Positions 1-8,007 of a DNA stretch of 64,000 nt are shown piece by piece (the first letter of the stretch is position 1; each line of letters begins with the position of its first letter). The DNA comes from Azospirillaceae bacterium (GTDB lineage: Bacteria > Pseudomonadota > Alphaproteobacteria > Azospirillales > Azospirillaceae), in the NCBI GenBank assembly GCA_031291675.1, contig JARLIO010000034.1, positions 186,001 to 250,000 on the forward strand, written 5' to 3'. The position numbers and the translations under genes are program-made. The notes under the pieces were generated by a model that saw only the letters and a list, made by a program, of their open reading frames with translations, did not search any database and had not been told where the DNA came from.

Positions 1-1323
1 ACCGGCCAACGGCCCGTCATGATCGGGGATCTGTGAAACCGCAATGCCCAGCCGCTCGAACAGCGCCGGCCGTCCCAATGCCACCGCCTGATCGCCAATC
101 CTGGCCGTCACACCGAAACCCTGGGTTTCACGGGCCTCGACCAGGGGCAGCCGGGCGCCATCGGGCGCCAACCCGGCCAGGGCACGGCTGACCGGGTGAT
201 TGCTGGTCGCGCCGATTGCGGCGGCGAGCTGGGCCAGGGTCTCCCGGCTTTGACCAGCCGACGGTACAACGCCGACCACGGTCAACTGGCCTCGCGTCAC
301 GGTACCGGTCTTGTCGAACACGATCGAGGTCACTTCGGCCAGGCGTTCGAGAAATCCCGAGCCTTTGATCAGGATGCCATGCCGCGCGGCGACCGCGATC
401 GCAGCAATTGCCGTCGCCGGCGCGGCGAGGATCAGCGCACAGGGGCACGACGCCACCAGCACCGCCAGCATCGCCGCGGTATCCGCGGAGGCAAACCAGA
501 CGCCCGCCGCGATGATCAGAATCAGGGTGATATAGGCACCGGCATAGCGTTCCAGCAACCGGGTGATCGGGGGCTTGGCCTGTTCGGCCTGCCGCATCAA
601 CGCGATGATCTTGCCAAGGGTGGTCTCGCCGCCGACCCGTGTGACGTTGACCACCAAACGGCCATCGAGATTGATCGAACCCGCGAGGACCGGATCCCCG
701 GCAACGACATCAACCGGCACGGATTCACCGGTCAGCGACGCCGTGTCGATACTGGACGTGCCGTCCCGGACGATGCCGTCGGCCGGGATGCGGTCACCGG
801 CGCGGAGTTCGATCGCATCGCCCGCCGCGAGGCGTCGGGTGGATACCACCTCAACGGCGCCATCGTCGCCAACAAGACGCCGTGCCGACGCCTCGACCAG
901 CCGGCCCAGGCTGCGAATGGCCGCCTGCGAGCTCAGCAGGCTTCGTTCCTCCAGAACATGGGCCAAAATCATGACGATGGGCAACACCGCCGCTGTCGTC
1001 ATGTCACCGGTCGCCGCCGCGGCAATGAAGGCGATCGCCACCAGCCGATCGGTGATTCCGTGAAGATCGGGCGATATCAGGCTGCTGACGCCGGCCGAGA
1101 GCACGGGAACGGCAACGACAGTCGCCGCGACACCGGCAATCAGCGCCGCGACTTCGGTTTCGGCGGGGAACAGCACGCGCCAGACGACGGTGACAGCCAG
1201 CAGGCCGGCTGCGATCATCGACAGCGTCAGGCGAAATGCGAGCGCCGCGTGCGGTCCGGGGCGCGGCAGCCGCCAGGGCCAAAAAGCACGCTGTGTCGCA
1301 GCCGCAATGCCGCTATCCGTCAT
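1..1323 (-). CDS. Heavy-metal P-type ATPase, C-terminus beyond window
   Basis: Membrane pump that moves a soft or transition metal cation across the inner membrane using ATP. The 441 residues present carry membrane segments at about 30-50, 55-80 and 90-120, the actuator motif TGES at 198-201, the CPC metal-binding motif in a transmembrane helix at 293-295, and the phosphorylation motif DKTGT at 337-341. There is no N-terminal HMA metal-binding domain: the protein begins with about 30 residues before the first helix. The nucleotide-binding domain and last helices lie off the left edge. The ATG overlaps the stop of the preceding SPFH gene (ATGA), which fixes the start and makes it the last visible gene of a four-gene operon. 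CPC (rather than SPC or CPH) is compatible with Cu, Zn, Cd or Co; the metal cannot be chosen from this. Confidence 0.95.
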   Translation of the reverse strand, partial: MTDSGIAAATQRAFWPWRLPRPGPHAALAFRLTLSMIAAGLLAVTVVWRVLFPAETEVAALIAGVAATVVAVPVLSAGVSSLISPDLHGITDRLVAIAFIAAAATGDMTTAAVLPIVMILAHVLEERSLLSSQAAIRSLGRLVEASARRLVGDDGAVEVVSTRRLAAGDAIELRAGDRIPADGIVRDGTSSIDTASLTGESVPVDVVAGDPVLAGSINLDGRLVVNVTRVGGETTLGKIIALMRQAEQAKPPITRLLERYAGAYITLILIIAAGVWFASADTAAMLAVLVASCPCALILAAPATAIAAIAVAARHGILIKGSGFLERLAEVTSIVFDKTGTVTRGQLTVVGVVPSAGQSRETLAQLAAAIGATSNHPVSRALAGLAPDGARLPLVEARETQGFGVTARIGDQAVALGRPALFERLGIAVSQIPDHDGPLAG

Positions 1324-2444
1324 GGCGTCGGTCCCGGGAAAATGAGTTGCCGCGTGCCGCGATGATCGATCACCGTCACGTCGCCGGCCTTTCGCAGGAT
1401 TGCCGCAATCTGTTCGCGGTAATATTGCGCCAGGACATTGTTATGGCTGGCGGTGGTCGTGTGGATTTCCAGGGCCGAGATCGCGGCGGTGTCGGTCATG
1501 GCATTCCGGACTCGCTCCTCGGCGACGGCGCGGCCATCGCTGAGGATCCGGTCGCGCTCGCTGGCCGCCTCCCGCGCCGCGCGTGCCGCGTCGGTCCGCG
1601 CGGCCGCGGCGGCCTGATCGGCGGTCTGCGCCGCGGTCAGGACGGCATCGAAGGCGGATTTGGCAATCGGCGGCAGGTCCGCCACGATATCAACGCGCGA
1701 GACGGTGACGCCAAGATCGTCGCCTTGTTCCTTGAGGGCGTCGAGGCGCGCGTTGATCGCACGCAGAAGATCGCCGCGCAGCGCCGCCCGCTGGGCTTCG
1801 GTGCCGACATCCGGCGCCCGGGTGCGGCGCCCCGCGACCCGGTCCTGGTCGGGCCGGGCAACCAGGAAATCATCGAGATCGCGGCTCGCGGCCAGGGCGA
1901 CCGCGCTGGTCTGATAAAGCCGGCGCAGCGCCGGCTCGACATGGGTTTCGGCGAGAAGATAGGCGGCAGGATCCGTGATTTCATAAAACAGCGTGGTATC
2001 CAGTTCGACGACACTGCCGTCACCGGTCAGAAGGTACCCGGCGTTATCCGCGTCCTTTTGCGAACGAAGTTGAATGACGTCGTCGCTGGGCGTGATCTCG
2101 AGATCGGTTTCGGGAGACAAGGGCCGTCCCGCGTTGATCGGTTCGGTGACCGAAACACCGGCCAGGTTGACGGCGGGTTCCGAACCGGCAATCCGCAACG
2201 CAATCTGCCGTTCCCGCGCGGGCAGCAGGCGGACCCGTTCGACCGGCTGGGGCCAGACCAGCAGCAACCCGGCCTCGCGAACCCGATCGATCCGCCCGAA
2301 ACGGAGCACCACGGCCCGGCTGTCCGCGGCGACCTGGCGAATATTGCTGGTCAGCCACCCCAGCGCGAGCAGCGCCGTCGCGGCATAGAGCAGGCGAAAA
2401 CCGATCTTGACCGATTGCGCCAGCGGATCGATCGGGCGGGTCAC
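1320..2444 (-). CDS. SPFH-domain membrane protein, HflK/HflC-like (third SPFH gene)
   Basis: A 374-residue stomatin/prohibitin/flotillin/HflK-C family protein. One transmembrane helix lies at about 16-35, then the SPFH domain (a typical VLRFGRID turn near 47-54, then the proline-rich VWPQPVERV), and a long Ala/Arg-rich helical region around 240-310 like the coiled coil of HflK and HflC. In Escherichia coli, HflK and HflC form a periplasmic-side cage around the FtsH protease. Here the gene overlaps both neighbours by 4 bases (ATGA) and lies between another SPFH gene and the metal ATPase. No ftsH or hflX is near. Whether it modulates a protease or organises the ATPase is unknown. Confidence 0.88.
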   Translation of the reverse strand: MTRPIDPLAQSVKIGFRLLYAATALLALGWLTSNIRQVAADSRAVVLRFGRIDRVREAGLLLVWPQPVERVRLLPARERQIALRIAGSEPAVNLAGVSVTEPINAGRPLSPETDLEITPSDDVIQLRSQKDADNAGYLLTGDGSVVELDTTLFYEITDPAAYLLAETHVEPALRRLYQTSAVALAASRDLDDFLVARPDQDRVAGRRTRAPDVGTEAQRAALRGDLLRAINARLDALKEQGDDLGVTVSRVDIVADLPPIAKSAFDAVLTAAQTADQAAAAARTDAARAAREAASERDRILSDGRAVAEERVRNAMTDTAAISALEIHTTTASHNNVLAQYYREQIAAILRKAGDVTVIDHRGTRQLIFPGPTP

Positions 2445-3502
2445 CGGGCGGCCTCCGCCGCCGCCGCCGCCGCCGATGACGGCAGCGACCCGGCTTCGGA
2501 TTCAAGCGCCGACGGTCCCTGGACCAGAGCCTGGAATGGTGCGGCATCGGTGCGCAGGATCATGCGGGTCCGGGTGCCGACGATGGCGTTGATGGCATCG
2601 AGCGATCGCACCAGGGTGTAGAGCTGCGGATCAAGGTCATAGGCCTTGGCATAGATTGCCGCGGCCTGCTGACGTGATTGGGCTTCGATCGCTGCCGCCT
2701 CGGTCTTGGCCTGGGCGCCGGTGATCCGGGCATCACGGGCGGCGTCGGAGCGAATTTCGGCTGCGATGCGCAACCCCTCGGCGGTGCGCTGGGCCGCGAC
2801 CGTTTCGCGTTCGGTGCGCATCCGGGCAACCGTTGCCGCCAGCGTTTCCGCCGGAAGGCTGAGACGTTCGACCCCGACCTGCCGGATCGTGACGCCATAG
2901 ATATCGAGAACCTGACGCGCCAGATCATCCTGCAACCGCTGTTCGAAGGCTGACAGTTGGGCCTTGGCGGGGTCGGTATTGACCAGATCGGTCAGATCGA
3001 AGTGGCTGGCGGTCACTTGCAGCGCGGATCCGACCAGACTGCGCAACTGGCGCGCCGCCTCGTCGGGATTATTGCGCGCCGCGCGAAGGAACTGGCGGAT
3101 TCGCGCCGGATCGTCCGGCACCTGCCAGGCGACATAGGCCTGGATCAGGATGCGCAAACCGTCGCGCGTCCCAACATCCTGCAACCCGCTGCTGGTGGTG
3201 CGCAAACGAAGATCGACCTGGATCGTCCCCTCGATCGGCGCCGGCGCTTTCCACGCCAATCCGGGTTCGGTCAGGACGCGGACCGGATCGCCGAAGGCGG
3301 TCACGACCACGGCCTGCCCGGCCCCGACCATGACCAGACACGACACCGCGATCGCACCCAGCACGATGATACCGGCCAGACCAATGCGGATGATCCGTCC
3401 CAGCATGACCGATCCCCCGGGCCGGGCCGTGATATCGAATTCATCCGGATCCGGACCGCCCTGGTCGCGGCGATCCCGATCAGCGGTGCCCTGGGGCATC
3501 AT
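2441..3502 (-). CDS. SPFH-domain membrane protein, HflC-like (second SPFH gene)
   Basis: A 353-residue HflC-like protein. A single membrane helix at about 36-58 follows a short polar, Asp/Arg-rich tail. The SPFH domain begins VVVTAFGDPVRVLTEPGLAW, a close match to the HflC signature of a turn followed by a glycine-leucine stretch. A helical Arg/Glu/Ala region at about 220-290 and the usual HflC-like C-terminal stretch on residues around YTLVRSLDAINAIV follow. The C-terminus ends in an alanine run. The first of two adjacent ATG codons overlaps the stop of the upstream gene, so that start was chosen. It is the middle member of the three-SPFH operon; paralogy to both neighbours suggests a hetero-oligomer, which is inference. 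Confidence 0.9.
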   Translation of the reverse strand: MMPQGTADRDRRDQGGPDPDEFDITARPGGSVMLGRIIRIGLAGIIVLGAIAVSCLVMVGAGQAVVVTAFGDPVRVLTEPGLAWKAPAPIEGTIQVDLRLRTTSSGLQDVGTRDGLRILIQAYVAWQVPDDPARIRQFLRAARNNPDEAARQLRSLVGSALQVTASHFDLTDLVNTDPAKAQLSAFEQRLQDDLARQVLDIYGVTIRQVGVERLSLPAETLAATVARMRTERETVAAQRTAEGLRIAAEIRSDAARDARITGAQAKTEAAAIEAQSRQQAAAIYAKAYDLDPQLYTLVRSLDAINAIVGTRTRMILRTDAAPFQALVQGPSALESEAGSLPSSAAAAAAEAAR

Positions 3503-5448
3503 GGACTCTGGCCTCCCTTTCCGTTCCTGGGTTCCGGGCCTGCCGCAGCGGTGGCCCCGAACGAGCGCAAATCGATCGTCGCCGCGTCGGCACCGTCGAG
3601 TCGGTTGTCGATGATTTCCAGCGGCATGTTGGCGAGCGCGCCCCGCAGGTTCGTGAAAAAGCGCTCCATCAAAAACGGCCGGCGGCCGGCGCGATAGGCC
3701 TGGTGATCGGCCTGAAAATCGCTCGCGTCCACCGCTGCGGCACCGGTTCGCTCGGCGGCCGCGGCGCGCGCGGCATCGGTCGCGCCATGGGCGTCGCGCC
3801 GCGCGATCTGGGTCAGCGATTCCGCCTTGCCGCGTTCTGTTGCGATCGCGGTCATGGCGGCGATCTCCGCAGCCTGGACATTGTGATAGGCGACGGCGGC
3901 GCCACCAGGCGGACGGATCGCCTCGATGACCACAGCCACGATTTCAACCCCGCCGCCGAGGCGATCAAGGGCGGCCTGCAATTGGGCCCGCGCGGTTTCG
4001 GCCAAGGTTTCACGATCGGCGCTCAAAGCATCGCTCAAGGTTTCCGTCGCAAAGAAATGGACGAATTGCCGCCCGGCGACCGCGCGGATCACCGGTTCAA
4101 CGGCCACCGCGCCGTACAAGGCCCGGCGCGCCGCGGCATCGTCGAGGCCGATGCGATAGAGGACGTGCAGGGTCACCCCGATCGTCTCGAAACTTTGCCG
4201 TCCCGCCTCCGCCCGGGCAATGATGGTGGAAGCCTCGGCGTTCTGGACCTGATCCCAGAGCCGGTTTGCGCTGGGCGGCGGCGGATCCTCGGCGCCGCGA
4301 CGCTCGGGCGGACTCGTGTCGGTCCCACCCTGAGGCGGCGCGACATCATCGCCGCCGATGACAATGGAATGGACGATGCCCAGTTCGGCGCGCCGGATCA
4401 CGGCGAACGGCCAGGGCAAGACGAGATGCAGCCCCGGCGCAAGCATCGCGACCGGGGCCCCGAAACGTTCGTACGATCCCCGTTCGTCGAGGCCGATCAC
4501 CACCACGCCGGTGAGGAGCCAACACAGCAGCAACAAGCCGAAGATCACCGGTACCGTCGCCCGCCGGAGATAGGTCAACGCCCAGCTCCGGGAAAAATCG
4601 ATGCCAAACCGGTCCCGGATCGTCTGCGCCAGCGCCTGCGGCGACGCATCATGCGGTCTCAGGCCGGCAGCGACCAGGCTTGCTATCGCCGGCTGGGCGG
4701 GATCGGCCGGCGGCAGGAACCAGACGGCCAGGTTCCGTACTGCCAACTCGCCGGCCAGGATGAACACGAACGCGGCCAGCATCAACCGAACCCCATAGAC
4801 CCAACCAAACCCCAGCCCCGCCAGGATTTCGAGCCCGCCGGCGACAGCGAAGGTGCAGACCGGAACAAAGAGCAGGACCGCCAATACCGGAGCTTCGGCC
4901 AACTGTGCCCCCGGGATGGCCGCGACGCGCCGCTCGATCACCAGAACCGGAAAAATCGCCCCCATCAGCAGGCTGGCGGTCACAAGATGCTGTTGCAGCG
5001 AGAGCGGATCGGGCCCAAGAGCCAACACCGGCCGGAACCGCCATTGCAGAATGGTCGCCAGGCCCGAAAACACGATCAGGATCATCGATTGGATACGGGG
5101 CCGACCGATGCCCCGACGCGCCACCCGCAGGATCCGCGATCGGGCGGCGGCGCGCGGATCGCCGTGCCGCGAAGCCGCGCCCCAGACCAGCAGCGTCGCG
5201 GCCCCGGCAATGATCAGCGTCGCCGGCCCCGATCCCGCCAGCCCGGCCTCCCGAGCCGCCATCGCCACAACGCCGACGGTCCCGGCCCAGGGCAGAGACA
5301 CTGCGGCCGGCAGGATGATCGCGAGCGCGAAGTAAATCAGTGTTGCCCCCGCCAGTAGGGCTTTCAGCGGCGGAGCCGCCCCATCACGGGCCGGTGGCAA
5401 AACACGGGCCGCAACGGCGGCCGTGCCCTGAGAGCGTTTCGATAGCAT
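3499..5448 (-). CDS. Polytopic membrane protein fused to an HflK-like SPFH domain
   Basis: First gene of the SPFH/P-type ATPase operon, 649 residues. The N-terminal half is a polytopic membrane domain with hydrophobic segments at about 30-50, 74-92, 120-135, 156-172, 186-212, 219-244 and 299-318; the C-terminal half (from about 320) is an SPFH domain with the HflK-type turn VLPWPFAVI and an Ala/Glu-rich helical tail. A proline/glycine linker interrupts the SPFH domain near 372-392. Ordinary HflK has one transmembrane helix, so the extra membrane domain is unusual. The family is sometimes labelled protease modulator HflK in metal-ATPase neighbourhoods. Its stop overlaps the next gene's start by 4 bases. 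Function is unproven. Confidence 0.85.
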   Translation of the reverse strand: MLSKRSQGTAAVAARVLPPARDGAAPPLKALLAGATLIYFALAIILPAAVSLPWAGTVGVVAMAAREAGLAGSGPATLIIAGAATLLVWGAASRHGDPRAAARSRILRVARRGIGRPRIQSMILIVFSGLATILQWRFRPVLALGPDPLSLQQHLVTASLLMGAIFPVLVIERRVAAIPGAQLAEAPVLAVLLFVPVCTFAVAGGLEILAGLGFGWVYGVRLMLAAFVFILAGELAVRNLAVWFLPPADPAQPAIASLVAAGLRPHDASPQALAQTIRDRFGIDFSRSWALTYLRRATVPVIFGLLLLCWLLTGVVVIGLDERGSYERFGAPVAMLAPGLHLVLPWPFAVIRRAELGIVHSIVIGGDDVAPPQGGTDTSPPERRGAEDPPPPSANRLWDQVQNAEASTIIARAEAGRQSFETIGVTLHVLYRIGLDDAAARRALYGAVAVEPVIRAVAGRQFVHFFATETLSDALSADRETLAETARAQLQAALDRLGGGVEIVAVVIEAIRPPGGAAVAYHNVQAAEIAAMTAIATERGKAESLTQIARRDAHGATDAARAAAAERTGAAAVDASDFQADHQAYRAGRRPFLMERFFTNLRGALANMPLEIIDNRLDGADAATIDLRSFGATAAAGPEPRNGKGGQSP

Positions 5449-5566: not shown

Positions 5567-7489
5567 TTACGGGGCCGCGGTGAAGTCGAACAGATCGGTC
5601 AAATCGCCGATGGCCGGGCTGTTGACCGGGACATAGGGATTGCCGCTCAACGCCTGCGGATTGGGCAGATTGTCCCGGGAATCGGCGGACACCGGCTTCA
5701 AGCCCCAGTTCCGCTCGACGAATTTGAGGAACGAAACATGGTCGCCATAGACATGCGATACCCGGCCGCCCTTGGAATACGCAGAGACCATGATCGCGGG
5801 AATGCGCGTGCCGTCGCCGAAGAAGTCCAGCGGCTGGACATAACCCGAATCCCAGGAACCACCGCCTTCATCCATGGTGATCAGGATTGCCGTGCTGGCC
5901 CACAGCGCCGGATTGGCCTGAACCTCGTCGACGATGCGCCGCGTGAAAGCCTCGAACAGATTCAGCTTCGACGATGCCGGATGGCCATCGGTCAATCCAT
6001 CCGGCTTGACATAGGACACCGCCGGCAGCGTCCCCGACTTGATGTCGCTATCGAGATCGGGAATGTCCTTCATGTGTTCCTGACGCTGATCTGCCTGCGT
6101 CATGACCGATTTGGAATACTGGAACGGATTACAGATATTGCAATAAAGCGGGCTTGATGGATCCTTGACATAGGCATCCCAGCCCGCACCGTAATACCGC
6201 CACGAGATGCTACGGTTGCTGAGTTCGTCCGCGATCGTCGGCATCGTCGACGGCGGGATGGTGAATGTTGCCGTATTCACGGTGCCATCACCAAGATAAC
6301 CCGGGTTGTAGTTGTTGAGGAGATAATAGGCGCCTTTTTCGCAATGCGGGTTCGGCTTGTAGGGCAACGACGACAAATAATCCAGAATCGGCTTCACGCC
6401 CGGCTGCGCCGGATCGGAACAATTGCTGTAGGACCCACCAGAATATCCGTCCTGCGAATAATAATTGTTGGTCCCGGCCTGTGGCCGCGGGTCCTCGATT
6501 TCATTGGCCGGAGGCGTTGCGGGATTGCCCTGGTCGTCGCTATAATACATTGCGAGACCCGTCCCAAGGACGATATGATTGGCCCCGGTCCCTCCCTGGA
6601 CCGACTGGTGGAAATTATCACTGCTGGTATAGCGATCCGCCAGATCCTTGAAATACGGCGCATCGCCCGCGCTGATATTGAAGAATCCCATCGCCGTGTT
6701 GCCTTCACCGGTCGAGCGATCGGTGAAATTGGCCGGCTGCGCCTTGCCGTTGCTTCCGGCGCCGATCGTGACCTCGACCCAGGGGAACAGATCGCTGAGG
6801 CAACCGGACGGATTGTCAGCCGTGGCATGGCTGACCGAGCAATCGAGCTGTTGCCACATCTGATAGAAGCGGTGGACCGGGCTCGGCGTGTAGGAATCGT
6901 AGGGGATCTTGGCGTTGGTGATGGGGAACGGCCCGTTCGCCATCGTCTGGGCATCGGGATAGCGCGTATCGACGCTGTGGCTGGCAATGCCGCTGGCCCC
7001 GGTTGTCAGCAGGGGCAGATCCACCGGAGACAACGCATTTTCCGCTTTGGCGGCGACCGCGATGCTGACAAAAGGCGGCCCGTTGGCATCACTGGCCGCC
7101 GTCGGAACACCATCGGTCATGGCCGGCGGCAACACCGAATAGGGCGTCTTGTCGGCCGGCGCGATCGAAAAGTCGCCGGTGACCGTGGCCGAATATTGCG
7201 CGGCCCGGGCGAAATGCGGCCCGGGCGTACCATCGGCATTGACGATACCCTTGGACAGCAGGTTCGACACCGTCTGACCAGCGACCGGTTTGTAGGTCGC
7301 ATAGATGTTATCGTAAGTATGGTTTTCGCCGATGATGATGATGACGTGCTTGATCGGCGTCGTGGTTTCCGCGTCGGCCGCCTGGGCCAAACCCGGCACC
7401 AGCGGTGCGAACACGACCGATGCGCTGACCGCAGCGCGAAGCGCCCAACGCAACCGCTGCTTTGCACGAGTCAGACTGTCCTGACACAT
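5567..7489 (-). CDS. Secreted phosphoesterase (acid phosphatase/phospholipase C superfamily)
   Basis: A 640-residue exported hydrolase of the alkaline-phosphatase-like phosphoesterase family that includes acid phosphatase AcpA and bacterial phospholipases C. A signal peptide ends at AQA near residue 37. The metal-binding GENHTYDNI motif follows directly, and a late block MDEGGGSWD ... YGDHVSFLKFVE supplies further predicted metal ligands, the standard arrangement of this family. No twin-arginine motif is present, so Sec export is likely. I chose the ATG at 7489 because it gives a clean signal peptide; an in-frame ATG at 7540 and the longer frame would place polar residues in front of it. It would act in the periplasm or outside the cell on phosphate esters. 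Substrate is not predictable. It stands alone. Confidence 0.9.
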   Translation of the reverse strand: MCQDSLTRAKQRLRWALRAAVSASVVFAPLVPGLAQAADAETTTPIKHVIIIIGENHTYDNIYATYKPVAGQTVSNLLSKGIVNADGTPGPHFARAAQYSATVTGDFSIAPADKTPYSVLPPAMTDGVPTAASDANGPPFVSIAVAAKAENALSPVDLPLLTTGASGIASHSVDTRYPDAQTMANGPFPITNAKIPYDSYTPSPVHRFYQMWQQLDCSVSHATADNPSGCLSDLFPWVEVTIGAGSNGKAQPANFTDRSTGEGNTAMGFFNISAGDAPYFKDLADRYTSSDNFHQSVQGGTGANHIVLGTGLAMYYSDDQGNPATPPANEIEDPRPQAGTNNYYSQDGYSGGSYSNCSDPAQPGVKPILDYLSSLPYKPNPHCEKGAYYLLNNYNPGYLGDGTVNTATFTIPPSTMPTIADELSNRSISWRYYGAGWDAYVKDPSSPLYCNICNPFQYSKSVMTQADQRQEHMKDIPDLDSDIKSGTLPAVSYVKPDGLTDGHPASSKLNLFEAFTRRIVDEVQANPALWASTAILITMDEGGGSWDSGYVQPLDFFGDGTRIPAIMVSAYSKGGRVSHVYGDHVSFLKFVERNWGLKPVSADSRDNLPNPQALSGNPYVPVNSPAIGDLTDLFDFTAAP

Positions 7490-8007
7490 GATGGATCTCG
7501 CAAATGAGGTTAAGGGGCAATCTGCTGCGTTGAGAGGCATCGCGGTTTGCCCAAGCCACAACTACGGGACAGCGACACCTCCAAACCGGCGCGAAATATC
7601 GGGCAGATCCGTGCACAATTAATTTCAACATGGTTAATTATTTATTAATAACGCATTATTTGACAATAACTCACAGGTGATGGAATAGATTTATTTATGA
7701 TTAATCCTTAATACCCCCGCATGTATTTTCTTTATTGTGAACAGCCTTCAACGGCAAGGCCGGAGAACCATGGAACGTGGCGTCCCGGCATCGTGGATCC
7801 TGATGTCGGAGCAACCTTTCCTGGAATGCCCGTGATGGCGCCGGGGGCTCCTAATCACCGGCCTGAAGCGGATCCGCTCAATCGCAATCCGCCATTGGGC
7901 GCGTGCTAATATCGAAACGGGCCGGCATGACAGCGCATCGCCGGTGGCCCCGGACCGGAATTCCGCTATGCTGCCATTCATTGCAGGCGATGATATCGGT
8001 GTCGGGA
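7490..8007. other. Intergenic region with AT-rich core
   Basis: About 518 bases between divergent genes with no convincing coding frame. The stretch from about 7615 to 7735 is markedly AT-rich for this genome (TAATTATTTATTAATAAC and similar) and probably holds the divergent promoters of the phosphoesterase and the PAS protein. I could not define -10/-35 pairs with confidence. Confidence 0.5.

Follow-up and report, generated by a model that had tools for sequence, protein, structure and literature searches.

What would a bacterium do with three different SPFH proteins encoded in line with a single metal pump? The question arises at the start of the window, a stretch of 64,000 nucleotides from an Azospirillaceae bacterium, where four genes follow one another on the minus strand. 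SPFH1 (positions 3499–5448, an ORF of 649 amino acids), SPFH2 (2441–3502, 353 amino acids), and SPFH3 (1320–2444, 374 amino acids with a GTG start) lead into a P1B-type ATPase gene of the HmtA type. The N-terminal two thirds of the ATPase lie at positions 1–1323 (E1-E2_ATPase, TIGR01525) and the gene continues past the window edge; the whole minus-strand gene encodes 655 amino acids at contig C88:185356–187323 (L009 9356–11323). Each junction in the series is a 4-base ATGA overlap, and coding on the minus strand is backed by GC by codon position. On the same strand, 118 bases upstream of SPFH1, is a gene for a secreted phosphoesterase (5567–7561; PF04185, E 6e-52), and just beyond the window a TAT-signal Rieske gene (L009 8745–9356) overlaps the ATPase stop codon.

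A first-pass annotation made from the sequence alone had described four overlapping genes, three SPFH proteins, and a CPC P-type ATPase devoid of an HMA domain, and these descriptions all held up. It had also proposed that the SPFH proteins form a cage around the pump. The reading favored here, with a probability of just under 0.6, is that of an HmtA-type transporter with a dedicated hetero-oligomeric SPFH scaffold that would probably form a cage around the ATPase on the periplasmic side.

Gene order and co-inheritance

The first-pass annotation had held that an order confined to this genome would refute its proposal. A gene-neighborhood search found the order SPFH1–SPFH2–SPFH3–ATPase in 29 loci from alpha-, beta-, and gammaproteobacteria, a recurrence that rules out both confinement to this genome and chance. 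The 4-base overlap between SPFH3 and the ATPase gene is kept in most of them. The SPFH trio is not always complete, as in an Acidiferrales metagenome-assembled genome (L054) that has the last three genes only and lacks SPFH1; in L053 and L060 the cassette is cut by contig ends. Plasmid records also carry the cassette: seven are from Rhizobium, one is a conjugative plasmid of Klebsiella aerogenes, and others come from Paraburkholderia and Burkholderia ubonensis. Megablast against E. coli genomes found no close counterpart to the Klebsiella cassette.

The four genes are inherited as a unit in scattered Proteobacteria, moving and descending together. In an even draw of 398 Proteobacteria, SPFH2 was found in 11 genomes at E 1e-149 or better, with ordinary HflC proteins next, from 1e-45. 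With the ATPase as query, the identical 11 genomes came back, all at E 1e-200 or better, and no others down to 1e-88, such that no genome among the 398 had one gene without the other. Across 27 loci the four proteins show correlated pairwise identities (r 0.94–0.98), as would equally result from vertical descent or from joint transfer; co-inheritance alone does not prove contact. Four SPFH2 sequences run against 84,980 species genomes gave 12 close relatives, 3 of them contigs from the order-level search; this broader scan missed many members owing to its narrow peptide patterns.

Two irregular copies were seen along the way. In Acidisphaera sp. S103 (L051 6731–8867), SPFH1 is present as two overlapping ORFs, one for the polytopic part and one for the SPFH part, reflecting either a real split or a frameshift. 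The SPFH2 ORF of L112 (9712–10197) is only 161 amino acids long and is possibly interrupted.

The SPFH subunits and the ATPase

All three SPFH proteins combine a Band_7 domain (Pfam E-values of 5.7e-12, 3.4e-29, and 1.7e-15 for SPFH1, SPFH2, and SPFH3) with a coiled coil, as expected for the SPFH superfamily. They fall short of the NCBIfam cutoffs for HflK (TIGR01933; 85 and 49 bits versus 159) and HflC (TIGR01932; 98 versus 134). With family alignments as queries against PDB, SPFH1 and SPFH3 match HflK (E 1e-17 for SPFH3) and SPFH2 matches HflC (E 3e-30). SPFH1 has an unusual plan, with a polytopic N-terminal domain of about six transmembrane helices followed by a transmembrane helix at residues 289–313, an HflK-type SPFH domain, and a long coiled coil. 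An AlphaFold2 monomer that serves as a rough guide only (mean pLDDT 59.8) likewise places about six helices before residue 313, with the transmembrane helix next and the SPFH domain and a helix of 70 residues after it, and its best Foldseek matches are to HflK (9cz2/7vhq; HflK and HflC of the FtsH complex). The low-confidence SPFH3 monomer (pLDDT 64) resembles SPFH1 in its layout but has a single transmembrane helix, at 7–32, followed by an SPFH domain and a coiled-coil helix at 259–328. SPFH2 has a single transmembrane segment at 40–58, and by the positive-inside rule its N terminus would be cytosolic and its SPFH domain periplasmic.

In a phylogenetic tree, SPFH1, SPFH2, and SPFH3 each form one clade with 100% support, the SPFH1 clade standing beside HflK and the SPFH2 clade as sister to HflC (100% support). 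An RSWAL motif before the last SPFH1 transmembrane helix was considered as a cassette-wide feature and is kept in the window's branch only. Distant matches at 24–27% identity (L062–L066) were set aside as cassette members, as the two that were tested (L062 and L063) group with other HflC-type proteins. On a conjugative plasmid of Aquibium oceanicum (L072 3367–10798), a PPIase-like gene and a gene for an HMA-type P-type ATPase accompany an HflK–HflC–HflK trio; this trio falls with ordinary HflK/HflC and is a separate arrangement.

The resemblance to HflK and HflC raises the alternative that the trio is a version of HflK/HflC made in zinc starvation whose target is the zinc protease FtsH, and that it has only its regulation in common with the pump. 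Zinc papers indeed name the Pseudomonas SPFH genes as FtsH modulators or membrane protease subunits (PMC11761036, PMC4542158, PMC9431628), and in L054 an FtsH-like N terminus, read by eye, lies several genes downstream. The tie between ATPase and SPFH2 in all 11 genomes speaks against this idea, as does the lack of any noticed FtsH gene adjoining the cassette at the other loci. Two other hflK/hflC pairs are also present in the window genome, and the trio falls in clades apart from them, for which reason a role as the canonical FtsH modulators was rejected. Action on FtsH is considered unlikely. With the four genes a conserved unit, the link of the trio is to this ATPase and not to the FtsH of the genome, and to this extent the first-pass proposal is supported in part.

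The ATPase has ASCPCAL (CPC) in TM6 and HNFST in TM8 on a P1B core, and no HMA motif or domain was found in it. The cassette ATPases have neither the P1B-1 (CopA) signature of YN in TM7 and MxxSS in TM8, carrying WT and HNx[SG]T instead, nor the P1B-2 (ZntA) signature of a TM7 lysine and DxG in TM8. Both signatures are found elsewhere in the genome, in its own CopA-like (L124, YN/MALSS) and ZntA-like (L125, K/DTG) proteins. The window ATPase is 54–60% identical to Pseudomonas-type and other cassette ATPases, and these form a monophyletic group in a tree that has only four outgroup sequences. One cassette ATPase (L061 11030–12979) has CPS for CPC in TM6 and QNSSS for HNxST in TM8, and its metal site may differ.

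The hmtA operon and the metal context

The locus is very probably an HmtA-type operon, a conclusion based on layout, synteny, and the 57% identity of the ATPases from L134 and the window. The order of the hmtA operon, i.e., HflK-like, HflC, a third SPFH gene, and a P1B ATPase on a single strand, is also the order in the window, and the window ATPase belongs to the same discrete subfamily as the Pseudomonas-type ATPases, a comparison in which L134 stands in for PAO1. In L134, whose genome belongs to the genus of G522, SPFH1-2-3 are followed by a 162-amino-acid gene, the ATPase gene, and one for a DUF4946 protein, which is the PA2439–PA2434 layout, and the proteins of this locus are 41–62% identical to those of the window. 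Genes like glyA, sdaA, and gcvT and a LysR-type gene flank L134, as they do the operon in PAO1. From the layout and that gene order, L134 probably comes from a P. aeruginosa-group genome.

The literature on control by zinc starvation and on metal import concerns P. aeruginosa, and import is reported for PA2435 only. In a znuA mutant, PA2439 (HflK family), PA2438 (HflC), PA2437 (HflC family), and PA2435 (HmtA) were up 9.0-, 10.6-, 14.4-, and 5.6-fold (PMC4542158). The PA2439 promoter is bound by Zur in the presence of zinc; the same study saw no zinc repression or change of hmtA mRNA (PMC8531726), and in a later review hmtA is named as an exception to the genes bound by Zur (PMC10393844). The operon's proteins are up in zinc depletion (PMC11761036), and the SPFH genes are up under zinc chelation by N-acetylcysteine (PMC9431628). 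HmtA is reported to import zinc and copper, its overexpression having raised both metals in cells, though reviewers hold that import needs confirmation (PMC10393844). The first-pass annotation overlooked that the unit is this known type of Zur-regulated operon. HmtA being a reported importer, the metal-sensitivity test of deletions that the annotation had suggested may come out opposite to what an exporter would give.

The same SPFH genes appear in a second literature. PA2439, PA2438, and PA2437 correspond to PA14_33070, PA14_33080, and PA14_33110 (PMC9431628), which are PaFlo5, PaFlo6, and PaFlo7 in a 2026 SPFH study (PMC13086221). That study described a shared operon with a patchy distribution, and HmtA and P-type ATPases are absent from its main text; deletion of PaFlo5–7 gave only mild phenotypes, with slightly lower biofilm, under the conditions tested (PMC13086221). 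The biofilm effect would suit a flotillin-like trio with only a loose link to the ATPase, one that arranges membrane microdomains or lipids for a number of proteins. P1B pumps do not generally need SPFH proteins, as mycobacterial PacL1–CtpC platforms form without flotillin (PMC9374683), a further point for such a loose link. Exclusive gene linkage to one ATPase subfamily speaks against this arrangement, which is regarded as improbable, the least favored of the explanations considered. The operon type is already known in zinc biology, where its SPFH part is cast as protease modulators or is left without a client.

His-rich stretches bear on the missing HMA domain. An N-terminal stretch with 6–20 histidines is found on SPFH2 in Pseudomonas-type, Rhizobium, Burkholderia, and f199 loci and in some Rhodospirillales and Acetobacteraceae loci, and some cassette ATPases also have one. 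On SPFH2 the tail is probably cytosolic. None was found on SPFH2 in the window, L051, L054–L056, L061, or the Klebsiella copy. The idea that the SPFH part replaces the HMA domain draws indirect support from the tails in most relatives outside the window's branch and does not extend to the window copy, which has no tail.

Zur-like palindromes upstream of the cassette are strongest in L111/L112 (12–13 of 14 positions) and are also seen at several Pseudomonas-type loci. Upstream of SPFH1 in the window, the best match to a Zur box was 8/14, not above shuffled sequences, and the alphaproteobacterial box may differ; upstream of the phosphoesterase the best was 9/14, the shuffle comparison applying to the SPFH1 upstream region only. 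The window thus represents a divergent branch with neither His tail nor Zur box, and because of these two absences zinc as the metal of the window copy would be an extrapolation. Metal genes neighbor the cassette elsewhere. In Paraburkholderia they are a GTP-binding gene, ZnuACBB, and PCuAC; L060 has ZnuA with its ABC genes; and in L018/L019 an NRAMP gene lies directly upstream. Directly downstream in L105 (5159–6373) and L106 (5177–6391), on the same strand, are an MNIO gene (PF05114) and a small Cys-rich precursor that resemble a bufferin-type copper peptide cluster.

The unit could instead export metal to load periplasmic or secreted metalloenzymes, the role proposed for TerC proteins and Mn-type P1B pumps, with the SPFH chamber as the loading site. 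The neighbors in the window's branch lend themselves to this idea. PF04185 homologs lie directly upstream of the cassette in L050 and L051 (66% and 63%), and in L052 this place is taken by a phosphoesterase of the unrelated PF00149 family, such that secreted phosphoesterases of two families precede the cassette in this branch. The NRAMP gene that precedes the unit in L018/L019, the Rieske gene after the window ATPase, and the TM8 motif HNxST in place of ZntA-type DxG or CopA-type MxxSS point in the same direction. Most loci lack an adjoining secreted metalloenzyme, and the zinc-starvation induction in Pseudomonas, together with the rise in cellular zinc and copper on HmtA overexpression, runs counter to export (PMC10393844). 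Export fits the neighbors in the window better than those in Pseudomonas and overall is judged rather unlikely, at about the standing of action on FtsH; these two are the main rivals. The PF04185 phosphoesterase is a possible operon partner in the window's branch. Phosphate control was also considered, and pho boxes sought upstream of the phosphoesterase gave nothing above shuffles. The Rieske gene was dropped as a core part of the cassette, being near it only in the window's genome.

In gene types and order the P. aeruginosa operon PA2439–PA2434 and the window agree. The former has an extra gene between SPFH3 and the ATPase, His-rich tails, and reported Zur control, whereas the window lacks all three and instead has the PF04185 gene upstream and the Rieske gene downstream.

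A putative SPFH scaffold around a metal pump

To return to the favored reading of a transporter with its own SPFH scaffold, its parts carry different weight. The gene unit, its co-inheritance, the families, the motifs, and the neighbors were observed, whereas the cage, the contact, and, for the window copy, the metal and the direction of transport are inferences. Physical binding of the trio to the ATPase is somewhat more likely than not. A closed cage around the ATPase has slightly less than an even chance. The fullest version, in which a hetero-oligomeric cage serving one metal pump has a walled periplasmic compartment, a cytosolic His-rich metal relay, and the polytopic domain of SPFH1 in its wall, is more tentative still. 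In the favored reading, two HflK-type subunits (SPFH1 and SPFH3) and one HflC-type subunit (SPFH2) would form a hetero-oligomer working with the CPC/HNxST ATPase. An SPFH ring or dome on the periplasmic side would wall off the membrane patch holding the ATPase, and the wall would lend the pump stability and hold zinc (or copper) close by while it is moved. Metal for import would come from the walled compartment and pass to the cytosolic His tail. In most relatives outside the window's branch, such a tail, on SPFH2 and sometimes on the ATPase, would do the work of the absent HMA domain by taking over the metal or passing it on. The window copy, lacking the tail, may serve metal supply near the secreted phosphoesterase.

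Known systems resemble parts of this picture. HflK/C encloses FtsH (PDB 7wi3). SPFH1 and SPFH3 are like HflK and SPFH2 is like HflC by sequence, SPFH1 also by fold; the cassette differs from HflK/HflC–FtsH in having three subunits, one of them polytopic, and an ion pump as the partner gene. The human stomatin dome encloses aquaporin-1 (AQP1) and UT-B, an SPFH ring around a transporter as proposed for the cassette, but it is a homo-oligomer with passive channels and more than one partner (PMC12407830). Mycobacterial PacL1–CtpC shares with the cassette an operon-linked scaffold with a His-containing metal-binding motif, and PacL1 stabilizes its P1B ATPase; unlike the cassette, PacL1 is a small DUF1490 protein rather than an SPFH protein, flotillin is unneeded, and the system exports metal (PMC9374683, PMC13043812).

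That three SPFH subunits are inherited exclusively with one ATPase subfamily provides a concrete candidate client for bacterial SPFH proteins, and it joins two separate literatures, on HmtA zinc import and on PaFlo5–7. It may also shed light on how import by a P1B ATPase could work, an activity that reviewers still question. If the proposal is true, this would be to our knowledge the first SPFH cage of an ion-translocating ATPase. Elsewhere in the window's genome, NRAMP-like, TerC-like, HflK, and HflC genes, with families read from the sequence, run in one direction at C88:632391–636635 (L010 4392–8635) and may constitute a second operon tying SPFH proteins to metal transport.
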